A DNA stretch of 64,000 bases from contig NZ_AP023368.1 in assembly GCF_014218355.1 (NCBI RefSeq), positions 3,600,001-3,664,000 on the forward strand. Reading direction: 5' to 3'. The DNA comes from Anaerocolumna chitinilytica (GTDB lineage: Bacteria; Bacillota; Clostridia; Lachnospirales; Lachnospiraceae). Made by a program: the position numbers and the translations under genes. Below are positions 6,366 to 64,000 of the stretch, in pieces. Position 1 is the stretch's first letter, and each line of letters opens with the position of its first letter. The notes under the pieces are model-generated. The model ran no database searches, was not told where the DNA came from, and saw only the letters and a list, made by a program, of their open reading frames with translations.

Positions 6366-6640
6366 AAAAAAACACCTCCTGCAATCGTAATTACAGGGGC
6401 GAATCTATCGCGGTACCACCCTATTTTTTATTAATATGTCACCATATTAACCTCTTTAAGTACGAACATACTCTAGTCTTATAACGCAGACCTACGTCAT
6501 AGCATCACGGCTTAAGTATATGACCGATCCGTATGAAGCTCCGAGGCTTGTTTCGTCTGTCTTTCGCTGCTCCTTCCCACCAACTGGAGCTCTCTGTAAA
6601 CTTCCGATAGATTACTTTTCTCTTCATAGCTTTTCTTTTT
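6366..6640 (-). promoter_or_regulatory. T-box riboswitch leader
   Basis: The transcript carries all T-box hallmarks in order. There is a Stem I base (TATGAAG / CTTCATA), an AGTA element, the CAGAGAG and GGTGG motifs of the Stem I apex, the T-box core AGGGTGGTACCGCG (6409-6422), and then an intrinsic terminator (6373-6399, roughly 10-bp stem) with a seven-T tract. It would read uncharged tRNA and allow read-through into the MetRS-like gene. On the 3' side of Stem I the GAA triplet (6554-6552) is followed by ACA (6551-6549). No AUG specifier is visible there. Confidence 0.9.
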
Positions 6641-7751: not shown

Positions 7752-8339
7752 ATGTCATTGCATAATAAAAACATTGGAATCGCTTTAACCGGTTCTTTTT
7801 GTACTTTTGATAAAACCTTTGAAGAAATTGAAAAACTATTAAGAGAAGATGCCAATGTATACCCTATTCTTTCCTTTAATGCTCAGAAAATTGATTCCCG
7901 TTTCGGTAAGGCAGAGGATTTTCGCCGCAGATTAGTTGAGCTAACCGGCCATGAACCTATTACTACCATTGAGGATGCCGAACCTATCGGCCCCAAAGAA
8001 ATGTTTGATATCCTGGCTGTTATTCCCTGCACCGGCAATACTTTAGCTAAGATGGCTACCGGTATTACCGATACTCCCGTTTTAATGGCTGCCAAAGCTC
8101 ACATCCGCAACAACAAGCCACTGGTTTTATCCATTGCCACCAACGATGCTCTTGGTAATAACTTAAAAAATATCGGTACCCTCTTAAATCAAAAAAATAT
8201 CTATTTTGTTCCCTTCGGTCAGGATAGTCCTACCGGAAAACCCAAATCCATGATAGCTCATACTCACCTGCTAACGCTTACCTTAGAAAGTGCTCTCGAA
8301 GGAAAACAACTTCAGCCCGTTGTCATCAGTCCATTCTAA
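7752..8339 (+). CDS. dpaB: Dipicolinate synthase subunit B
   Basis: A 195-residue flavoprotein-like subunit (SpoVFB), of normal length for the family. The N-terminus IGIALTGSFCTFDK and the PCTGNTLAKMATGITDTPVLMAAKAH segment (about residues 96-118) are characteristic of the DpaB/Pan-flavoprotein fold. It completes dipicolinate synthase with DpaA. A GAGG ribosome-binding site precedes the ATG. The two genes together show that the organism forms endospores. Confidence 0.93.
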   Translation: MSLHNKNIGIALTGSFCTFDKTFEEIEKLLREDANVYPILSFNAQKIDSRFGKAEDFRRRLVELTGHEPITTIEDAEPIGPKEMFDILAVIPCTGNTLAKMATGITDTPVLMAAKAHIRNNKPLVLSIATNDALGNNLKNIGTLLNQKNIYFVPFGQDSPTGKPKSMIAHTHLLTLTLESALEGKQLQPVVISPF

Positions 8340-8388
8340 TATTCACTATTCTATAATAGAAACGCCAAACCTTATTTATATATTTACA

Positions 8389-8465
8389 GGAAATTTGCAC
8401 AAAGCCGAAAGAACGAATGCGCCTTGGAACCAGCGCATGAGTCTTTCGGCTTTGTGCAAATTTCC
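8389..8465. repeat. Long nearly continuous hairpin (24-bp perfect arms plus inner stem)
   Basis: Arms at 8389-8412 and 8442-8465 are perfect 24-bp inverted repeats. The 29-nt interval contains a second stem ATGCGC/GCGCAT (8417-8422 / 8433-8438). There is no T tract on either strand, so it is not a standard terminator, and it is separate from the terminator at 8500-8567. It may be a REP/MITE-like element or an RNA structure at the end of dpaB. Confidence 0.75.
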
Positions 8466-8499
8466 GTCCCCTTTAGAAAAACTAACCTTCTGCTACAAT

Positions 8500-8567
8500 A
8501 AAAGCCCGGAATATGAACCGCCCCCCGTCTGCCTGACAGGGACCGATCCACATCATTCCAGGCTTTT
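8500..8567 (-). terminator. Terminator of the GH16 gene
   Basis: Arms AAAAGCCCGGAAT (8500-8512) and ATTCCAGGCTTTT (8555-8567) pair with one mismatch across a long G/C-rich loop. The minus-strand transcript ends in TTTTATTG. Confidence 0.6.
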
Positions 8568-8573
8568 CTACTA

Positions 8574-9815
8574 CTATTGAACTTTAGTCAGATACCATTT
8601 CTGGGCATCTGTGCCGTTATCCGTCCATTGCTGCACTACCGCTCCGTCCGCTGTAGATGAGTTGGAAACGTCCATTGCAAATCCGGTAGCTTTTGATACC
8701 AGTTTGTAATAGCCACCTCCCACATCTACTATCTTCCACCTTTGCGCATCATTACCATTATCCGCAGCCTGCTGGAGTTGCAGGCCTTCTGTAGCTGCTC
8801 CATAGGGAACATCCAGACATTTACCGCTATGTATAGCAGTCAGTTTATAATACCCGCCTCCCATATCATCGATACGGAATCTTTGATTATTTGCGCTATA
8901 GTTGGTCCATTGCTGTGTCTTTGCTCCATCAGCAGTAGAATTATCTTTGATATCCAAAACTTTTCCGCTGCATTTAGCTGCCAGAGTATAGATTCCGCCA
9001 CTCACAATAGGTGAGGTATTGGACTGAGCCTGATATACTCTAACATAATCTACCAGCATTTGTGCCGGAAAAACAGTTGAGCTGTTTGGACTTCCGGGCC
9101 AGTCTCCGCCAACAGCAAGATTTAAGAGCAAGAAGAAAGGTTTCTGGAATTCTTCTGTTCCGCCTGTACCATTTTGAATGTACATCTCGCAGAACTGAGT
9201 ACCATCAACAAACCATCTTAAATAACTAGCATCCCATTCAAGAGAGTAGGTATGGAACTGAGAGAAATCAAGAGAACCTGAGGTCAGTCCATAATCAGCT
9301 TGTCCATTAGAATCCCAGTGAGCGGTTCCATTCACAAATGCATTATTGTTTACACGTTCCATAATATCAAGTTCGCCGCATTTCGGCCAGTTAACGGATG
9401 TAATATTATCACCCAACATCCAAAAAGCAGGCCAAATTCCTTGGCCGGAAGGAAGCTTGATTCTAGCTTCTATCTTCCCATAGGTAAAACTCTTAATTCC
9501 TTGTGTCTTGATTCTTGCAGAAGTATAATTCATTCCTCCGTAAGATTCCTTCAGGGCTGTTATTACAAGATTTCCACCGTTCTCTGTAACATTCTGTGAA
9601 CGGTCAGTGTAATACTCCAGCTCATTATTACCCCATCCTTTAACACCTGTTCCTATCTCTGCCGTCCATTTGGAGGTATCCAGACTGCTTCCGTTAAACT
9701 CATCACTCCAAACCAAAGACCAGTTTGTAGCAGCTTTTGGGCTCACCGAAGGCAGCATGGAAATAATAAGAGCTAAAACCAACAACAAGCTTACCATTTT
9801 CCCTTTTCTTAACAT
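8574..9815 (-). CDS. Secreted GH16 beta-glucanase (laminarinase-like) with CBM13
   Basis: A 413-residue secreted enzyme that cuts beta-1,3 (or mixed beta-1,3/1,4) glucans. Residues 1-29 are a signal peptide (basic start, hydrophobic core, AxA-type site near PKAA). The GH16 domain spans about 31-270 with the catalytic signature GELDIMERV (nucleophile Glu148, Asp150, acid/base Glu153). GTGVKGWGNNELEYYTD is typical of GH16 laminarinases. A linker leads to a ricin-type beta-trefoil (CBM13, about 277-413) with three repeats containing QxW-like motifs. It is alone in its transcription unit, with a consensus promoter and a terminator. Confidence 0.92.
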   Translation of the reverse strand: MLRKGKMVSLLLVLALIISMLPSVSPKAATNWSLVWSDEFNGSSLDTSKWTAEIGTGVKGWGNNELEYYTDRSQNVTENGGNLVITALKESYGGMNYTSARIKTQGIKSFTYGKIEARIKLPSGQGIWPAFWMLGDNITSVNWPKCGELDIMERVNNNAFVNGTAHWDSNGQADYGLTSGSLDFSQFHTYSLEWDASYLRWFVDGTQFCEMYIQNGTGGTEEFQKPFFLLLNLAVGGDWPGSPNSSTVFPAQMLVDYVRVYQAQSNTSPIVSGGIYTLAAKCSGKVLDIKDNSTADGAKTQQWTNYSANNQRFRIDDMGGGYYKLTAIHSGKCLDVPYGAATEGLQLQQAADNGNDAQRWKIVDVGGGYYKLVSKATGFAMDVSNSSTADGAVVQQWTDNGTDAQKWYLTKVQ

Positions 9816-9837
9816 AAATATATCTCCTTCTCATTTA

Positions 9838-9906
9838 TTATTTCATATCATGCCGCGCGATCATGATATTGAAATCCAGAATATAGGGGATTTTGGGTTC
9901 AGCCAT
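9838..9906 (-). other. Possible upstream ORF in the GH16 leader, 22 codons
   Basis: Between the promoter and the GH16 start lies ATG 9906 to TAA 9838 (MAEPKIPYILDFNIMIARHD and two more residues). Its ribosome-binding site is poor: GGAGG is 17 bases away. Its 3' half coincides with an 8-bp hairpin (ATATCATG / CATGATAT). It could be a leader peptide or chance. Confidence 0.25.
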
Positions 9907-9939
9907 CTTTTATGTAATTGAATCCTCCGTGCAAGGAAT

Positions 9940-9968
9940 ATTATACACTAATTGCTATAATATGTAAA
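9940..9968 (-). promoter_or_regulatory. Promoter of the GH16 gene
   Basis: On the minus strand TTTACA (9963-9968) and TATAAT (9940-9945) are 17 bp apart. The leader is about 118 nt and contains the hairpin at about 9844-9868. Confidence 0.7.
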
Positions 9969-10018
9969 TATATTTTGTTAATATTTGTCGTATTTTTACT
10001 ATTTTCAGGTTGTATAGT

Positions 10019-10073
10019 AAAAAAAACAGAAAGATTGATTTGGGTTTAATTTCCTTCCTGCAATCTTTCTGTT
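10019..10073 (-). terminator. Terminator of the SDR gene
   Basis: A perfect 13-bp inverted repeat (AACAGAAAGATTG / CAATCTTTCTGTT) is followed on the minus strand by an uninterrupted run of T residues. Confidence 0.85.
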
Positions 10074-10082
10074 ATAAACTGT

Positions 10083-11102
10083 TTAACCTCTGATAACTTT
10101 TGCCGCATTTTCCAATGTATCAATTACCTTATCACACCACAGGTCGAATTCTTCATCTTCCTTCTGGCATTCCGGATGACTGAGTACATATTCTACTATG
10201 TTCTTAACCTGCTGGTCAAATCGTCTGGTACAGGTAAACCCGGGAACCAGCCTCTTAATTTTAGAATTATCAAATACCACGGAATTGGCTTTATCACCTA
10301 TTAATGCCCCTTTATAATCCTGATTACTTACTGCATCCAGGAATTCGGAGGAGACGTAGTATGCCTTTAAGTCCACACCCAAAGCATCCGCAATTGCTTT
10401 ATGAATCTGGTTCCAGGTAAGTGTCTCATCGGAAGTAATCTGAACAGCTTCCCCAATTGCATGAAGATTACCCATCAGTCCGATAAACCCTTTTGCAAAG
10501 TCGCTGTTATGGGTTAAGGTCCACAACGATGTGCCGTCACCATGTATAAGGACTTTCTTGCCTGTCAGCATTCTCTTTATTACCTGATAACTGCCCAAAG
10601 CACCATGAACACCTACAGGAACACTCCTCTCATCATAGGTATGGCTGGGTCTTACAATGGTTACCGGGAATCCCTCTTCACGGTAAAGCTTCATCAAATA
10701 ATCTTCACAGGCTATTTTATTTCGGGAATATTCCCAATAAGGATTAGAGAGTGGCGTCCCTTCCGTTATGCGGTAATCTCCTAAAGGTTTCTGGTAAGCA
10801 GATGCCGAACTTATAAATATAAACTGTTTTGTTCTATCCTTAAAGAGTCTGTAATCTCTCTGAAGCTGTTCCGGCACAAATGCTATAAAGTCTGCGACTA
10901 CATCGAAGTTATGGCCTTTAATCAGCTCAGCAACTTTGTCTTCCTCCGCGATATCAGCTATCAATTCTTTTACTTCTCCGTCAAATACGGCATTTTTGCT
11001 GCCTCTGTTCAATAAATACAAATCGTGGCCTTCTTTGATAAGCTCTTTTGAAATGGCAGTGCTTATAGTTCCGGTTCCGCCAATAAATAGTACCTTCATC
11101 AT
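10083..11102 (-). CDS. NAD-dependent epimerase/dehydratase family protein (extended SDR)
   Basis: A 339-residue cytosolic Rossmann-fold protein. The dinucleotide-binding motif GGTGTISTAI is near the N-terminus (residues 8-17). FIFISSASAYQKPLGDY and YWEYSRNKIACEDYL supply the SDR Ser and the YxxxK pair (Tyr and Lys of YSRNK). The closest recognisable relatives are the sugar-nucleotide-type epimerases related to plant CSP41/bacterial NAD-dependent epimerases; the substrate is unknown. It has its own terminator. It is adjacent to, and in the same orientation as, the aldo-keto reductase gene, about 64 bp apart, so they could be co-transcribed. Confidence 0.85.
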   Translation of the reverse strand: MMKVLFIGGTGTISTAISKELIKEGHDLYLLNRGSKNAVFDGEVKELIADIAEEDKVAELIKGHNFDVVADFIAFVPEQLQRDYRLFKDRTKQFIFISSASAYQKPLGDYRITEGTPLSNPYWEYSRNKIACEDYLMKLYREEGFPVTIVRPSHTYDERSVPVGVHGALGSYQVIKRMLTGKKVLIHGDGTSLWTLTHNSDFAKGFIGLMGNLHAIGEAVQITSDETLTWNQIHKAIADALGVDLKAYYVSSEFLDAVSNQDYKGALIGDKANSVVFDNSKIKRLVPGFTCTRRFDQQVKNIVEYVLSHPECQKEDEEFDLWCDKVIDTLENAAKVIRG

Positions 11103-11166
11103 TACCTCCTTTATTTTTACCCGTAAAATATTCTTGCCGGTTTTCTTTCTTTAATACTAACTAGCC

Positions 11167-57782: not shown

Positions 57783-58997
57783 TTAATATTCCTGATTTAG
57801 TTCTTCTAGTATAGCCGGGAAGACTTCCAAACTGCGTTTTAATATTCCTTGCATATAAGCTATGAGAATACCATAATTCGTTATTGGAACCTGTTGATCT
57901 ATACTGCATTTTTGACGGTATTTTACTTCTCGTTCTGTAATCATACAGCCTCCGCAGTGAACGATAAGTTTATATGGGCTTAAGTCCTCCGGGAATTGTC
58001 CTCCGGAAGTAAAAGCGAACTGAAATTCTTTGCCCGTATAATTCTTAATCCATCTTGGCAGCTTTACCGTTCCGATATCATCACATTGTCTGTGATGGGT
58101 ACAGCCTTCACATATTAATATGGTGTCACCATCTGTAAGTTGTTCCAGGGCTGCCACTCCCTTTACTGCTTCCTGAAGAAGCCCTTTATACCTTGCAAAA
58201 AGGATGGAGAAGGACGTTAAGGGAATATCTCTTGGTGTGTCTGCTGATACTTTAGCGAAGACCTGACTGTCTGTTATAACCAAACTTGGCTTCTTTCCCA
58301 AATTCTCTAAGGTTTCCTTCAACTCATATTCCTTTACCACAATAGCGGTGGCATCGGACTCTAAAATATCTCTTATTGTCTGCTGTTGAGGTAAAATCAA
58401 TCTGCCTTTTGGTGCTGCTTTATCAATAGGTACAACCAAAACTATGAAGTCAGAAGGATGTATAATATCTCCAACAATTCGAAGTTTATTATCTTCTACG
58501 GGAGCTAAAATTGCAATTTTTTCTTTCAATGCTTCTATATTTTTTCCTGTAATAGCGCTAACATAAATTTCATTTGACTTATCGGGAGACGCTTCCTCTG
58601 TTAATAAATCCACTTTATTATACACAATAAGATATGGAATATTTTTTTCTCCGAAAAGTGTAATTAATTCTTCATCCGAATTGCTAATTCCGGTAGTTGC
58701 ATCTACTATAAGAATTGCAACATCCGTTTTATTTAATACCTGCCTGGTCTTTCTGACTCTAAGTTCTCCTAAGGAACCTTCGTCATCAATTCCTGGAGTG
58801 TCGATTATCATCACAGGACCCATTGGTAGCAACTCCATTGCTTTATATACAGGATCTGTAGTAGTACCTTTGAATTCAGACACCACTGATAGTTCCTGCC
58901 CGGTGATTTTATTTACAAGGCTTGATTTGCCTGCATTCCTCTTACCGAAAAACCCAATATGCACCCTGTCAGAGGAGGGTGTTTCATTTAATCCCAT
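57783..58997 (-). CDS. hydF: [FeFe]-hydrogenase maturation GTPase HydF
   Basis: About 404 residues from ATG 58997 (AGGAG upstream; longer frames lack a site). HydF is the scaffold on which the 2Fe subcluster is assembled and handed to the hydrogenase. The N-terminal GTPase has GFFGKRNAGKSSLVN (P-loop), DTPGIDDEG and YNKVDLL. The C-terminal [4Fe-4S] domain holds CEGCTHHRQCDD and HCGGCM, with the expected Cys/His ligands. HydE and HydG are not in the window. Followed by aspA. Confidence 0.95.
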   Translation of the reverse strand: MGLNETPSSDRVHIGFFGKRNAGKSSLVNKITGQELSVVSEFKGTTTDPVYKAMELLPMGPVMIIDTPGIDDEGSLGELRVRKTRQVLNKTDVAILIVDATTGISNSDEELITLFGEKNIPYLIVYNKVDLLTEEASPDKSNEIYVSAITGKNIEALKEKIAILAPVEDNKLRIVGDIIHPSDFIVLVVPIDKAAPKGRLILPQQQTIRDILESDATAIVVKEYELKETLENLGKKPSLVITDSQVFAKVSADTPRDIPLTSFSILFARYKGLLQEAVKGVAALEQLTDGDTILICEGCTHHRQCDDIGTVKLPRWIKNYTGKEFQFAFTSGGQFPEDLSPYKLIVHCGGCMITEREVKYRQKCSIDQQVPITNYGILIAYMQGILKRSLEVFPAILEELNQEY

Positions 58998-59114
58998 ACT
59001 GCCATCTCCTTTGTGATTTTCATGAAAAGACATTTTTCCTGCCTTTTCATATATCTCCATGCGAACCTTATGGTATCACAAAAACCTTATCAAATCAAGC
59101 AGGAGTAGAGTTTA

Positions 59115-59189
59115 CAAATAATAATAATAATAATAAGAAGAAGAAGAACCGGCTATAGAGGAAATATTCAAATCTTCTATAACCGGTTC
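59115..59189 (-). terminator. Terminator whose tail is a trinucleotide microsatellite
   Basis: Arms GAACCGGCTATAGA (59146-59159) and TCTATAACCGGTTC (59176-59189) pair with one mismatch. On the minus strand the T-rich tail is made of (TTC)n followed by (TTA)n repeats, about 59115-59148. It closes the KAS III-like gene. Confidence 0.75.
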
Positions 59190-59193
59190 TCAA

Positions 59194-60159
59194 TTAAAAT
59201 TTACAAAGTAATGTTATGGTCTGGGTACCGCTCCCGAATGCACATAGGATAAAATAATCACCACGCTTGATCTGCTGGTTCTCCCACATCTCGTAAAGAG
59301 CAATAAAGGGGCTGCTGGTTCCTGTATCACCATATATATCTCCAATATATGGGCTATTCACCGCATCTATATATAGTCTCTCCCGAATACGCTCAAGACC
59401 CTCTCGGTTATTCTGAGAAAAGCAGAACATATTAATATCATTTATTCCAAGGTTGTTGCGACTTAGTATCTCATAAATTGATTCCTCTGCAACATCCATG
59501 ATATGTGCTTTCTTTCCTACAAAAGAGAACTTGAAGTCTGCTCCTTCTTTAATCATAAGCAGATTAGAAAAACCGCCGTAAGGGAAATGATATCCATCAT
59601 TATCTTCTGTTCTTACAAGACTCAAAGAATCATATACTCCGCATTCATCTTCTGTTCTTTCAAGGATTACAGCACAGGCTGCATCTCCTAAGTTATTTTT
59701 ATTCATATCTATATAATCACATCCAATTAAGAGTGCCCTCTTTATGTTTGAGCTTACCGACATATATTTTGATATTTGATCAAAGGCAAGAGTCATACCA
59801 CAGCCATTGGAATTAACATCGTAACAGATGCATTCTTTTTTACCGCCGATAGCATTATGGATTTTCACAGATGTTGCAGGTGTCACATATTCCGGCAATT
59901 GACTGGACAATACAATCATATCCATGTCAGCACCGGACAAATCGGTTTTAAAGAACAGTTCCTGTATTGCATCTAAAGAAAGCATAATTGTATTCTGCCA
60001 ATTATACCTGATACTGCTGTATTTTTCACTTTTATCCACTATTTCTTCAACCACCACATTTCCTTGTGCCTTTTCAGAAATAATCTTTTTATTTTTGATA
60101 TGGTCGGAAATATAGTATCCCTGACTTACTGCGATATCTCTGATCTTAATATGTATCAT
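59194..60159 (-). CDS. KAS III-like (FabH-type) thiolase-fold protein with altered catalytic residues
   Basis: 321 residues from ATG 60159 (GGGAG upstream). It has the beta-ketoacyl-ACP synthase III fold: the nucleophile region is DVNSNGCGMTLAF with Cys120, and the C-terminal glycine loop is CAFGSGTQT. The normal catalytic His (HQAN motif) is replaced, as the site reads FSQNN with Ser248. The catalytic Asn (YGNT) is replaced by Asp278 (YGDTG). It therefore may not decarboxylate malonyl-ACP and could be a transferase, hydrolase or non-FAS enzyme. It stands alone behind a cyclic-di-GMP riboswitch. Confidence 0.8.
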   Translation of the reverse strand: MIHIKIRDIAVSQGYYISDHIKNKKIISEKAQGNVVVEEIVDKSEKYSSIRYNWQNTIMLSLDAIQELFFKTDLSGADMDMIVLSSQLPEYVTPATSVKIHNAIGGKKECICYDVNSNGCGMTLAFDQISKYMSVSSNIKRALLIGCDYIDMNKNNLGDAACAVILERTEDECGVYDSLSLVRTEDNDGYHFPYGGFSNLLMIKEGADFKFSFVGKKAHIMDVAEESIYEILSRNNLGINDINMFCFSQNNREGLERIRERLYIDAVNSPYIGDIYGDTGTSSPFIALYEMWENQQIKRGDYFILCAFGSGTQTITLLCKF

Positions 60160-60279
60160 ATAATCTCCCATGCATATGGCAATCTGCCTGTTGATTGTTT
60201 ATTGTCTACAAGATATTGCTAACAATAGTGAAAATTACAATTGCACTGTTATCGTTATATCATTTACAAATTTTTCTAT

Positions 60280-60314
60280 AAAAAGAAAAAGCTAGCCAAG
60301 AAAGCCATGGCTAG
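60280..60314 (-). terminator. Expression-platform terminator of the c-di-GMP riboswitch
   Basis: The stem CTAGCCA / TGGCTAG (60308-60314 with 60292-60298 on the transcript) is followed by CTTTTTCTTTTT. It stands between the aptamer and the KAS III-like gene, so ligand binding would control read-through. Confidence 0.8.
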
Positions 60315-60319
60315 TCAAT

Positions 60320-60398
60320 AAACCTGGTAACCCGGCTACCTTTGCATCTGCTTTAGGCCCGTGGCTTTGCGTCCCTGCCTTTCGACAGGTTTGCCTTT
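60320..60398 (-). promoter_or_regulatory. Cyclic-di-GMP-I (GEMM) riboswitch aptamer
   Basis: The minus-strand RNA carries the GEMM-I consensus in order: GGCAAACC, a GAAA tetraloop hairpin (TGTCGAAAGGCA), GGGACGCAAAGCCACGGGCC, then the second hairpin arm and AGGTAGCCGGGTTACC. This class binds bis-(3'-5')-cyclic dimeric GMP. It is followed at once by an intrinsic terminator and the KAS III-like gene, which is therefore its only evident target. The remaining part of 60172-60571 shows no further gene. Confidence 0.93.
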
Positions 60399-60571
60399 AT
60401 CTTGCATTATTTTTTTGTTTCCGTACTATAGTAATAAATACCTATTACATATTATATTATATACATATTTCACTTTTTAGCAAGTATTATTTATATAATT
60501 TGTCATTCTTAGTCATTTTTTGTTGTTTTGATTTCATGAAATCCAAATTTCTTTCATCTGATATATACATT

Positions 60572-61117
60572 TTATTTGTCGATAATTAAATTCACAATAT
60601 CTTTGTATGTCGTAAATGCCTTCAACTGAAACTTCCCTATTTTTATACTTTTTGTATAATTGTTAATCACCAAGTATTGACTGAAAGCAGCTGAGTCTTC
60701 AATAATTCCTTTTTCCTTTAAAAGCTTTGATACCTGTTCTGAAGTCATACCTTGGGTAATATTTATTTCGATGGCACCTGAGGCATTACTGGTATCCTTG
60801 GAATTCCCTTCCTTTGAGGTATCTTCAGAAGCCGGGGTCTTTGTAGAAGCAGGAGTATCTGTTGGTGTTGGGGTGTCCGTTGGTGCAGGAGTATCTGTTG
60901 GTGCAGGGGTAGTTGTAGGGGCCTCTGTAGGAGTCGTAAGTAAATCATTTAGTGACCCGTCTGCTGTCTTTTCTACCATTCCGAGTTCTGTAGCCCGCTC
61001 TTTGATTTGTGCATCGGTTAGTTTTTTATTTGGAAATATATGAAATGCAACAGACATAACAACAGCAGTAAAAAGTATTCCAACACCTATCCCTCTTATA
61101 TAATATTTTAAGTTCAT
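60572..61117 (-). CDS. Truncated MltG/YceG-like membrane protein
   Basis: 181 residues. One membrane span (about 7-27), a Thr/Pro linker of repeated TPAPTD-type units (about 61-100), then a C-terminal domain with INITQGMTSEQVSKLLKEKG and IKIGKFQLKAFTTYKDIVNL. This C-terminal domain matches the LysM-like N-terminal part of MltG. The catalytic transglycosylase domain is absent, so it probably binds rather than cuts peptidoglycan. It is the last gene of a minus-strand run after fapA. Confidence 0.75.
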   Translation of the reverse strand: MNLKYYIRGIGVGILFTAVVMSVAFHIFPNKKLTDAQIKERATELGMVEKTADGSLNDLLTTPTEAPTTTPAPTDTPAPTDTPTPTDTPASTKTPASEDTSKEGNSKDTSNASGAIEINITQGMTSEQVSKLLKEKGIIEDSAAFSQYLVINNYTKSIKIGKFQLKAFTTYKDIVNLIIDK

Positions 61118-61200
61118 ATAATCCTTTCGCTAATATCAGATTCTTATTTGATATTCCTTAAAAATATTGTTAAAAAAACGAAACCTTTTAATTGGATTTC

Positions 61201-61854
61201 TTACTGTTGTTTTTGTCTGTACAGGTCGACTACAAGCTTTACTTCACCCTGTCCGATTTCTAAAGTTCGTGAGATATCTACAATAGAAAATCCATTGGAG
61301 TACAGTTCCAATATTTTTTGATTGGAATTATTTCCTGCTTCAGGATTATCTGGGGCTTGTAATTCCCTCGCCGGTAAATCTCTTGCCCCAACAGTCTTCT
61401 CTGTCTTCTCTTCCTTCTTTTCCGTCCTGGCAGGCTGGTGAATATTTTCTTCCAATACTTTTTTCTGCCTGTCTGCATTTTTTAGGAATGTTTTGAGCTC
61501 TTCTTCCTTTTCACCAAGCATATTATAAAGAAATATCACTTCTTCATGATTGTGCTTAATCTTCTCTAATATTTGTTCTGAAAAGTCATGAACTGCTATG
61601 ATTTTCTCATTGGAAAGCTGACTTAATTGATTCTCCAGTTTAAATAAATATCCCTCTGAAGTCTCCTGACAAGCCTCGTCAAATTTCTGTCTCAACTCCT
61701 TCGTAAGAAGTTCATTACTGACTTCGCCCACTGTTTGATTCAGGACAGTTGAAGGAATAAATCCATTGTTCTTATCGGTTTTATCCACCATAAAACAACT
61801 GATTATTATCGCTGCAAGTCCTGCTATAACAAGGATAATTGCTATCGCTTCCAT
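61201..61854 (-). CDS. Membrane-anchored coiled-coil protein (DUF6115-like)
   Basis: 217 residues: an N-terminal membrane span (about 2-22), a long helical/coiled-coil segment (about 45-135), a Lys/Glu-rich linker and a C-terminal helix-turn-helix-like motif (ILELYSNGFSIVDISRTLEIGQG, in part quoted) that resembles the DUF6115 end. Such proteins are common next to fapA in motile clostridia; function unknown. Confidence 0.75.
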   Translation of the reverse strand: MEAIAIILVIAGLAAIIISCFMVDKTDKNNGFIPSTVLNQTVGEVSNELLTKELRQKFDEACQETSEGYLFKLENQLSQLSNEKIIAVHDFSEQILEKIKHNHEEVIFLYNMLGEKEEELKTFLKNADRQKKVLEENIHQPARTEKKEEKTEKTVGARDLPARELQAPDNPEAGNNSNQKILELYSNGFSIVDISRTLEIGQGEVKLVVDLYRQKQQ

Positions 61855-61985
61855 ACATAACCTCGTTTCTGAATATTAATCATACCTGAATATTAATTAT
61901 TGATTCAATATTCTTAAATCGGCAATTAATTAATGCCGAGTTCCTATACAATCCTTCGGATTAAGTTAAGTTCTCTCTTATAGAA

Positions 61986-62297
61986 TTATATCCTGATATC
62001 AATAGAACCTGGCTTCATCGTCCCTTTTTCATCCTTGGACTCTTCTTTTTGCTTTTTCTTTGAATTTGAACCGGAATAACTGTTATTCCCTTTTTCTTTT
62101 GCATCATAACGATATTCCTTGTTATCACCCTTTGTCATTTTGACTGTTTGCTGACTGTTATGTTTTACTTCATGGCTCAACTTGTCGTGGATCAGAATCT
62201 GGTCGTTCATGGGTTTCTGACTTTCCTGATGCTTATAGCTTGTAACCTCCTGGGACTTTGGTGCCATCGATGCAATTTCAATAGGCGTTATAGGCAT
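61986..62297 (-). CDS. Small hydrophilic protein, unknown function
   Basis: 103 residues from ATG 62297 with GGAGG upstream. It is Lys/Ser/Gln-rich and without membrane spans, probably disordered (SGSNSKKKQKEESKDEKGT near the end). PITPIEIASMAPKSQEV at the N-terminus recalls small proteins found near flagellar genes. It lies between the fapA-like and the DUF6115-like genes. Confidence 0.6.
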   Translation of the reverse strand: MPITPIEIASMAPKSQEVTSYKHQESQKPMNDQILIHDKLSHEVKHNSQQTVKMTKGDNKEYRYDAKEKGNNSYSGSNSKKKQKEESKDEKGTMKPGSIDIRI

Positions 62298-62471
62298 ATT
62301 ACCCTCCATGTGATGCGCTTTTGCGCATCCTCAAATCAAATGTGAATTGTATTAATTTTCACATTACTCCTTTGTGAATATCAAATCTTACTATTAATAT
62401 ACCTGAATATATAGCTGAAAATGCTTCATTTCTTTCAACATTCGAAACAACCATGTCGCCGACTAACTGAA

Positions 62472-64000
62472 TTATAAACCAACTATTTTGATGTCAGCCC
62501 TGTCTCTTATAAATTTTGAATAATGGGTTTCTGTCTTTATGTAATAGATTACATTGGATATCATAACTTTTACCCCAGGATAAGCGACGTTTTCAACTTT
62601 TATCCATCCTCCATCGCTATTACCAATTTCAGCCCTCAACTGCTCATATTGACTCTGGCATTCTTTTAGTTCTTTCCGAAGTAAAATGCAATTATTTGTA
62701 GCAATTCTGATATATTCTAATTTTTCAGGTGAAAACACTTCTCCCTGACTTAATTTTCGTTTGTAAGTATCTATAATTGGCAGCAGCTTATCGAGATCTG
62801 CATCGATAGCAGTTATTCTCTTTTGTAATGCTCTGTAATTTTCTACTTTTCTGGGATCAATACCAACTTCCAGCATAGTATAGGTTCCCATAGTGGAGCC
62901 TGCAGTTTTAACAGTAATGGATGTTCCGGACATTATTTCACCTCCGGTTATAAATCCCTTTTTACCGCCTACTGTGATATCTCCTTTAGCAGATACCTTA
63001 CTGTGCAGAATAGCTTCTGTCGTAATATACCCTCCGGACTTGACAACGGCATTTTCGATAAATTTGCTGATTATATTACCTTCTGCCTCCATAATCCCTT
63101 TATTCATACCCTGCATGCCTCTTTTTAAGACGATCTGACCGCCTGCATAAAGAGTGGCTCCTTCTACAACACCGTCTACGATAATATCTCCTTTGGCATG
63201 TACAGAGTATCCGGCAGTTACATTACCTTTAACAGTAACATTTCCTTCGTAGGTGATATCTCCTGTGGAGGAATCAACATCAGCAAGAACTTCATAGGTA
63301 TTGGAAACAAACACTTTGTCATTTATCAAATCAGCATGTCCGCTGACATCTGAGAACATGATAAGCCCGTCTTCTGACAAATGAATATCTCTGCCATGTT
63401 TTAAGACCTTTCTCGTTACTTTTCTGGGTTGTATACTAACACCTGTAACATCTATCCCCGGCTTACCAAGAACTTCAGGGATTAATTGAGCCAGCTGATC
63501 CCCTTTATTAATAGAGCTAATCATATCCAACTGATGAAAATCTACCGTTCCATCCTCTTTTTCTTTTGGCTTTAAAGATTTATCCGTATTAAAAAAATAG
63601 ATGATTTCCGCATCTTTTCCTTCAACAGGCTTTAATCCTCTGGCTAATGTTATTGCTTCATTGTAGACTGGGTTTGCAATATAATCATTAATGATATCTT
63701 CAAGAATACCATATTTTACACCGGAACTTTTTAATACCTCTATAATATTTGCCTTACTTAACCTATTCCCCTTCTGGGAAGCTGGATAGAAAATACCTTC
63801 AGCGTACATCTTATCCGGAGAAAATGTAACCTCCATTAATTCGTCAATTTTTGGTAATTGTGCTACCGTCAACTTGCATTCAACTACATTTTCTTTTGAT
63901 GCATTCAAAGCACGTACAAGTGAATTCATGTCATAATCATAAATCTTTACCTTGCTAAGATATTTTGATAAATCATCAAATTCCAATGGTTTACCATCCG
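62472..64000 (-). CDS. FapA-like (DUF342) protein, 5' end beyond the window
   Basis: At least 508 residues. The family (FapA/flagellar assembly protein A) is defined by repeated right-handed beta-strand units, visible as GNVTVKGNVTAGYSVHAKGDI and GGQIVLKRGMQGM in the middle (first quoted in part), preceded by the DUF342 N-terminal part (SINKGDQLAQLIPEVLGKPG) and followed by a coiled coil (about 385-465). The open frame continues to the window edge (DGKPLEFDDL); the TTG at 63986 is an internal codon. It suggests a motility or polar-assembly role. Confidence 0.85.
   Translation of the reverse strand, partial: DGKPLEFDDLSKYLSKVKIYDYDMNSLVRALNASKENVVECKLTVAQLPKIDELMEVTFSPDKMYAEGIFYPASQKGNRLSKANIIEVLKSSGVKYGILEDIINDYIANPVYNEAITLARGLKPVEGKDAEIIYFFNTDKSLKPKEKEDGTVDFHQLDMISSINKGDQLAQLIPEVLGKPGIDVTGVSIQPRKVTRKVLKHGRDIHLSEDGLIMFSDVSGHADLINDKVFVSNTYEVLADVDSSTGDITYEGNVTVKGNVTAGYSVHAKGDIIVDGVVEGATLYAGGQIVLKRGMQGMNKGIMEAEGNIISKFIENAVVKSGGYITTEAILHSKVSAKGDITVGGKKGFITGGEIMSGTSITVKTAGSTMGTYTMLEVGIDPRKVENYRALQKRITAIDADLDKLLPIIDTYKRKLSQGEVFSPEKLEYIRIATNNCILLRKELKECQSQYEQLRAEIGNSDGGWIKVENVAYPGVKVMISNVIYYIKTETHYSKFIRDRADIKIVGL

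Follow-up and report, generated by a model that had tools for sequence, protein, structure and literature searches.

Beta-ketoacyl-ACP synthase III (FabH) carries a Cys-His-Asn triad, of which the His and the Asn are needed for decarboxylative condensation, and PqsB/PqsC is a KAS III-like pair in which one of the two subunits is non-catalytic. On the RNA side, among the closest described systems to the locus considered here is Cd1, the c-di-GMP-I riboswitch of the C. difficile flagellar operon (PMC9262584, PMC3649979). PMC9262584 describes Cd1 as an OFF switch in which the terminator coexists with the aptamer and competes with an antiterminator, and the pilM riboswitch as an ON switch. Two Bacillus switches are reported as ON, namely Bc1, a c-di-GMP-I switch of B. 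thuringiensis that precedes an MCP gene and turns transcription on (PMC11218506), and Bc2 (PMC4933901). The locus described below has a riboswitch of this known kind, and its target is a KAS III-like gene; full-text literature searches listed no paper in which a gene of the KAS III type is tied to a c-di-GMP riboswitch, which is not proof of absence.

The window, by which we mean the whole 64,000 nucleotide stretch analyzed, comes from the Anaerocolumna chitinilytica genome (5,621,910 bases, 5.62 Mb, in one contig). Its relevant features are as follows.

57783-59060, minus strand, hydF, downstream of the KAS III-like gene
59144-59191, minus strand, hairpin that probably ends the KAS III-like transcript (-25.1 kcal/mol, z -5.6; none of 200 shuffled sequences does as well)
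59194-60171, minus strand, KAS III-like gene, longest open reading frame (325 aa)
59326-59328, minus strand, Asp282 codon, at the place of the catalytic Asn by alignment
59416-59418, minus strand, Ser252 codon, at the place of the catalytic His by alignment
59803-59805, minus strand, Gly123 codon, at the place of the catalytic Cys by alignment (the next residue is Cys124)
60279-60291, minus strand, U-rich run after the terminator hairpin, from the sequence
60292-60314, minus strand, expression-platform terminator hairpin CUAGCC-loop-GGCUAG, 8 nt after the aptamer
60322-60404, minus strand, c-di-GMP class I (GEMM-I) aptamer (cmscan E 3.4e-15)
60456-60483, minus strand, putative sigma-70 promoter, TTGCTA-16-TATAAT, upstream of the aptamer
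60572-61117, minus strand, YceG-like gene, upstream of the riboswitch
60572-63986, minus strand, tail of a flagellar/chemotaxis run (fapA, 107-aa ORF, DUF6115, YceG-like), directly upstream
62472-63986, minus strand, fapA, upstream

Read along the minus strand, the order is thus fapA, a 107-aa ORF, a DUF6115 gene, the YceG-like gene, the riboswitch, its terminator hairpin, the KAS III-like gene, a second hairpin and hydF. The KAS III-like gene probably starts at the ATG at 60159 (321 aa), because GGGAG precedes this codon and the orthologues align from the methionine there. The strong hairpin between this gene and hydF makes a one-gene unit look likely, with a terminator of its own; short trinucleotide repeats (aat, then aag/gaa) are found at 59119-59150, between that terminator and hydF. 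The candidate promoter comes from a scan that was not above chance overall (10 found, 8.6 expected). Beyond the window the upstream run goes on with a fliA-type sigma factor gene, cheD, cheC, cheW, cheA and cheB, and further with a YcgR-type PilZ gene, flhG, flhF, flhA, flhB, fliR, fliQ and fliM; these names rest on Pfam for seven genes and were otherwise given by eye from ORF starts. To judge from the sequence, the KAS III-like gene lies directly behind flagellar and chemotaxis genes, yet has its own switch and its own end. Elsewhere in the window, a T-box leader (RF00230, 112 bits) lies at 6392-6636 on the minus strand.

A sequence-only reading of this DNA had proposed a well-conserved GEMM-I aptamer with an adjacent terminator, and both parts of that proposal hold. 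The covariance-model search with RF01051 that was to follow it up places a canonical aptamer at 60323-60405 (84.4 bits, cut-off 35), a few bases away from the coordinates first given, and the hairpin at 60292-60314, followed by its U-rich run, has a predicted free energy of -10.4 kcal/mol (z -2.3; 5 of 200 shuffled sequences do as well). Its loop is 11 bases, and a simple terminator scanner with loops of 3-8 did not list it. The locus resembles Cd1, as described in PMC9262584 and PMC3649979, in aptamer sequence and structure, in pocket residues, in a terminator independent of the aptamer strands and in motility context; it differs in that the target of Cd1 is the flagellar operon itself, whereas the switch here acts on a single gene for a KAS III-like pseudoenzyme, which follows the flagellar run.

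The top Rfam name given to the aptamer by cmscan is RF03167 (c-di-GMP-I-GGC; 72.3 bits, cut-off 59), which might suggest that the RNA senses that variant's ligand. The pocket, in positions that we take to follow Vc2 numbering, reads G20/A47/C92 and by sequence is of the ordinary c-di-GMP type. The RF03167 model has G at the A47 place, which we take to be the mark of the GGC variant (an interpretation of its name based on the consensus of the model), and the window aptamer has A there, on which ground the variant is rejected. A at position 20 is a change linked to cGAMP sensing, and the window aptamer has G at this position. With the RF01051 score as well, sensing of another ligand, whether that of the GGC variant or cGAMP, is very improbable. 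Of 30 aptamers at loci of the wider protein family discussed below, 18 read G/A/C at positions 20/47/92 and 12 read A/A/C; all ten Anaerocolumna RNAs are G/A/C, and the A/A/C group comprises clostridia, Sporolactobacillus, L014 and L127. Ligand preference among family aptamers outside Anaerocolumna may therefore vary, as judged from these pocket letters. The twelve A-at-20 aptamers upstream of the KAS III-like family, all in Firmicutes, are at L014, L016, L018-L021, L023, L025, L032, L049, L051 and L127.

The genome has seven RF01051 matches, the window aptamer among them. The targets of the other six are an operon of STAS-like, KAS III-like and acyl-CoA-ligase genes, an MCP gene, a gene for a cellulose-binding-domain protein and one for a transglutaminase-like protein; by eye, one of the remaining two precedes a GGDEF/PAS-like ORF and the last has no clear target. 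In Bacillota, a survey also reports tandem c-di-GMP-I switches that control transglutaminase-like genes (PMC12452182).

The polarity of the window switch was considered through predicted folds. When only the part downstream of the aptamer was folded, as was done for 8 of 13 RNAs, the terminator hairpin formed alone in all eight (P 0.99-1.00). In the free fold of the leader, aptamer strands break the terminator in three of the four window-type RNAs (P 0.03, 0.00 and 0.01), and the fourth, L129, keeps it (P 0.73). Of six RNAs that precede the paralogue described below, four keep the terminator (L090 and L122-L124, P 0.99-1.00) and two about half keep it (L091, 0.55; L121, 0.45); it is also kept at L014 and L025 (P 1.00). 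In these folds a clear antiterminator is present in the window type only, and the antiterminators considered for the paralogue RNAs are not convincing. In the ten Anaerocolumna RNAs the terminator begins 5-12 nt past the aptamer; since it is complete without an aptamer strand, the bound aptamer and the terminator can coexist. A terminator-like hairpin follows 27 of the 30 family-locus aptamers (a count that includes L027 and L053, where 4-5 kb separate the aptamer from the gene downstream); it is weak at L084 (-3.8 kcal/mol), and none was found at L040, L045 and L046.

Because a terminator that coexists with the aptamer matches the description of Cd1 in PMC9262584, we favor an OFF switch, in which c-di-GMP binding would let the terminator form. 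The opposite arrangement, in which binding prevents termination and expression belongs to the sessile state with high c-di-GMP, would agree with the ON polarity reported for Bc1 and Bc2 in Bacillus (PMC11218506 and PMC4933901). It would also agree with one feature of the window RNA: in its free fold, UAGCC of the aptamer 3′ strand is base-paired to the 3′ arm of the terminator (P 0.92-0.95), which yields a longer hairpin before the same U-run. It is nevertheless unlikely, given a terminator that needs no aptamer strand, the spacing that allows it to coexist with the bound aptamer, and the flagellar location of the gene.

That a single thiolase-fold gene stands behind this switch, as the sequence-only reading had it, is borne out by a match to the C-terminal KAS III domain PF08541 (59.9 bits, cut-off 26.6) and by the gene's own terminator hairpin; the N-terminal domain PF08545 falls just below its cut-off (23 against 24). 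The KAS III match covers most of the protein length, and the best PDB match, 5bqs, spans residues 59-322. The same reading called the product a fatty-acid-type condensing enzyme, and here the alignment disagrees. The protein shares the FabH fold family and aligns with it over nearly its full length, but Gly-Ser-Asp replaces Cys-His-Asn, in all 11 window-type proteins (the query plus P0001-P0010). The next 85 homologs have C/S/Y (84) or C/T/Y (1), and the last four have C/H/N (three) or C/S/F (one, a partial protein). Among the tree rows, the 96 other family members are all C/S/Y (91) or C/T/Y (5), without His or Asn, and the FabH controls are C/H/N in 4 of 4. From these triad residues, the family has lost the His and Asn on which decarboxylative condensation depends, and in the window type the acyl-carrying Cys is gone too. 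The TIGR00747 (FabH) score of 77.4 bits is far under the cut-off of 292.1; by triad and score, plain FabH identity is ruled out, although the family is named "3-oxoacyl-ACP synthase" in databases. The proposed tie between c-di-GMP and lipid making fares badly for the same reason.

A real condensing enzyme or acyltransferase, perhaps among the genome's only KAS III proteins and linking c-di-GMP to lipid or small-molecule synthesis, would still find some room in the genome content. Two PF08541 genes were found, both under c-di-GMP-I switches, and the TIGR00747 cut-off is reached in 0 of 15 genus genomes, some of which carry KAS III-like genes below it, against 8 of 14 control genomes. The fatty-acid operon (L148, G000:C1:960500-974500) encodes ACP, FabK, FabD, FabG, FabF, AccB, FabZ, AccC, AccD and AccA, and no fabH was seen in it when its ORF starts were named by eye. 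An acyl-CoA ligase gene adjoins the paralogue, and Cys124 remains one residue beyond the catalytic place in the window protein. We nonetheless judge an enzyme of this kind improbable. None of the aligned places holds a catalytic Cys, His or Asn, the family as a whole is without His and Asn, and Cys124 is common to the paralogue, which also keeps the catalytic Cys. The genome has one PF00109 gene and FabF is present, so fatty-acid synthesis may start another way. An acyl function of some sort for the Cys-bearing paralogue keeps a low probability, but it would not rescue the window protein, which lacks all three residues.

The paralogue also qualifies the description of the target as a lone gene: the window gene does appear to be a single-gene unit, but it is not the only one of its kind, as a second KAS III-like gene (Cys-Ser-Tyr) in the same genome is under a sister c-di-GMP-I riboswitch (G000:C1:4593254-4593336). 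That operon, all on the minus strand, reads as follows in the coordinates of its own locus (L120).

10837-11166, minus strand, STAS-like gene
9821-10810, minus strand, KAS III-like gene
7982-9640, minus strand, acyl-CoA ligase gene

In a tree of 104 rows, made by a quick method with SH-aLRT support only and with a long-branch warning that leaves single placements unsure (one duplicate pair, L062/L092, is kept in the tree and triad rows), the four window-type rows form one clade (support 100) nested in a ten-row Anaerocolumna clade (support 100), all of whose rows have the aptamer. By this topology the window type arose by duplication inside a riboswitch-bearing clade. Among 15 genus genomes, several of them incomplete, the family is present in 10: four carry the window type (G000, G398, G404 and G407), all together with the paralogue, two carry the paralogue alone and four have only distant members. 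In the genus, all four window-type genes and all six paralogue genes have an aptamer ahead of them.

The window-type stem branch is long (0.76 changes per column after the duplication), and this, with the lost triad, is what would be expected of a decaying duplicate without function. That account is scarcely credible: three window-type orthologues give dN/dS values of 0.034-0.056 (synonymous sites are saturated in comparisons that involve the window gene itself), from which the catalytically dead form appears to be under purifying selection in these three; the open frame and the riboswitch are retained in 4 of 4 genomes, and the G/S/D residues are identical in 11 of 11 proteins. On dN/dS and conservation we reject a decaying pseudogene.

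The wider family spans Firmicutes. Named genomes and MAGs yielded 242 relatives when scanned, and the loci of the best 80 of these 242 (1.31 Mb) were searched on both strands with a model built from the genome's seven aptamers. An aptamer was found at 23 of these 80 loci, on the sense strand in 23 of 23 and within 1 kb upstream in 21; the two distant ones lie 5.2 kb upstream (L053) and 4 kb upstream, ahead of an MCP gene (L027). At L027 (3873-5452) STAS-like and KAS III-like genes follow further downstream of that MCP gene on the same strand. Among 397 family-level genomes the profile matched 40 at E <= 1e-40, and the 13 genomes with E < 1e-60 were taken as family; a further family match in G278 (contig 28) is not among the loci. 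Matches not below E 1e-60 were taken as FabH-like, and the resulting 17 loci (L103-L119), set apart in this way by E-value, showed no aptamer at E <= 0.01 in flanks of at most 1.5 kb (0 of 17); four of them entered the tree and the triad check.

An aptamer lies upstream in 30 of 100 family tree rows and is absent from the DNA covered in the other 70. Explaining the aptamer label across the full tree takes 10 changes, of which no fewer than 8 fall on well-supported branches, so the aptamer has, on this tree, been repeatedly gained or lost in the family. Another riboswitch class at members without GEMM-I was considered. Rfam gave seven riboswitch matches at 20 small loci, all c-di-GMP-I or its GGC variant and all at already aptamer-positive loci, and at nine further loci only group II intron pieces and no riboswitch; no other class was found at these 20 and nine loci.

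Neighbors were counted at 95 non-redundant loci, leaving out those without a called KAS ORF (L027, L057, L074 and L080) and duplicates (L092, L121, L122, L129 and L131). A STAS-like gene, mostly of 110-117 aa, lies on the same strand within 600 bp upstream at 61 of the 95 (and on the other strand at four), a same-strand MCP gene no more than 300 bp away at 17 (with five more within 3 kb), and an acyl-CoA-ligase gene within 300 bp at 11. Partner matches beyond 3 kb number four, all MCP, with flanks of at most 1.5 kb at loci L090-L131. MCP neighbors concentrate in clostridia, and shared ancestry inflates all of these neighbor and linkage counts. The MCP gene is adjacent at 12 of 13 loci of L093-L102 and L125-L127. 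For the MCPs of these loci, some of them on truncated ORFs, a simple hydropathy scan predicts roughly four to six membrane segments at the N terminus, against two in the Bacillus type. Nine loci have no STAS-like, MCP or ligase neighbor, including all four window-type loci (0 of 4 with any of these). Across the family as a whole, gene order points to linkage with STAS-like, MCP and acyl-CoA-ligase genes.

For the small partner, evidence of a STAS relationship is weak. No STAS match was found in Pfam (four proteins scanned, with two weak unrelated matches) or in NCBIfam (31 members), and a PDB search gave no STAS chain. Alignment by hhalign to 19 STAS rows covers 94 columns at 20% identity (P 5e-4 to 1e-3, probability 22-31%), and against one STAS protein only 14 columns aligned.

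Bc1 (B. cereus group) shares a chemotaxis target with these loci and is matched at L007, another c-di-GMP-I locus of the A. chitinilytica genome, where an aptamer (1501-1583, with A at position 20) lies directly ahead of an MCP gene (1663-2919); Bc1 differs in being reported as ON, and the passages of PMC11218506 considered here do not mention a KAS III-like gene. The target found here agrees with motility, the customary theme of c-di-GMP-I switches, more than it departs from it, because the family recurs beside chemoreceptor, STAS-like and acyl-CoA-ligase genes and the gene is not isolated. A link to the change between motile and sessile states, which the sequence-only reading had raised, is probable, and the chemoreceptor or signaling-like genes beside many family members point to signaling and away from lipid synthesis.

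We lean, somewhat more than evenly, to the explanation that a c-di-GMP-I riboswitch controls by premature termination a non-catalytic KAS III-fold subunit of a motility-phase module that is OFF at high c-di-GMP. Its ligand, polarity, partner and output we infer from the anatomy, linkage and conservation visible in the sequences. Binding of c-di-GMP to the aptamer would let the terminator at 60292-60314 form and turn the window gene off; the protein would then be made in the low-c-di-GMP, motile phase, where it would act as a non-catalytic subunit, probably pairing with the Cys-bearing paralogue, in a complex that would serve chemotaxis or motility rather than fatty-acid synthesis. Counter to this explanation, the window-type loci lack partner genes, and in two genomes of the genus the paralogue occurs and the window type does not. 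PqsB/PqsC, whose PqsC is matched by the KAS III-like family profile, offers a precedent for pairing a live KAS III subunit with a dead partner; it differs in serving quinolone synthesis, of which there is no sign here, and the pairing proposed here is a candidate only.

More tentatively, and with rather less than an even chance, the family may represent an undescribed chemotaxis-linked module of Firmicutes, present in clostridia such as C. beijerinckii, where the riboswitch and KAS III-like gene of L025 come with the STAS-like gene, and C. tyrobutyricum, where those of L051 come with the MCP gene. In it the KAS III-fold protein, without the condensing His and Asn and here without the Cys as well, would be an acyl-reading or scaffold subunit for the small STAS-like protein and multi-pass chemoreceptors; c-di-GMP riboswitches would have been recruited several times, and the window gene would be a fully dead subunit in Anaerocolumna. 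The riboswitch is of a known kind and its target is not, being a KAS III-like family without the reaction residues that travels with chemoreceptor and STAS-like genes. If confirmed, this would be a new type of effector gene for c-di-GMP, it would correct a widespread misannotation, and it would suggest a way in which swimming might be informed by acyl metabolites or by a dead subunit of a synthase.
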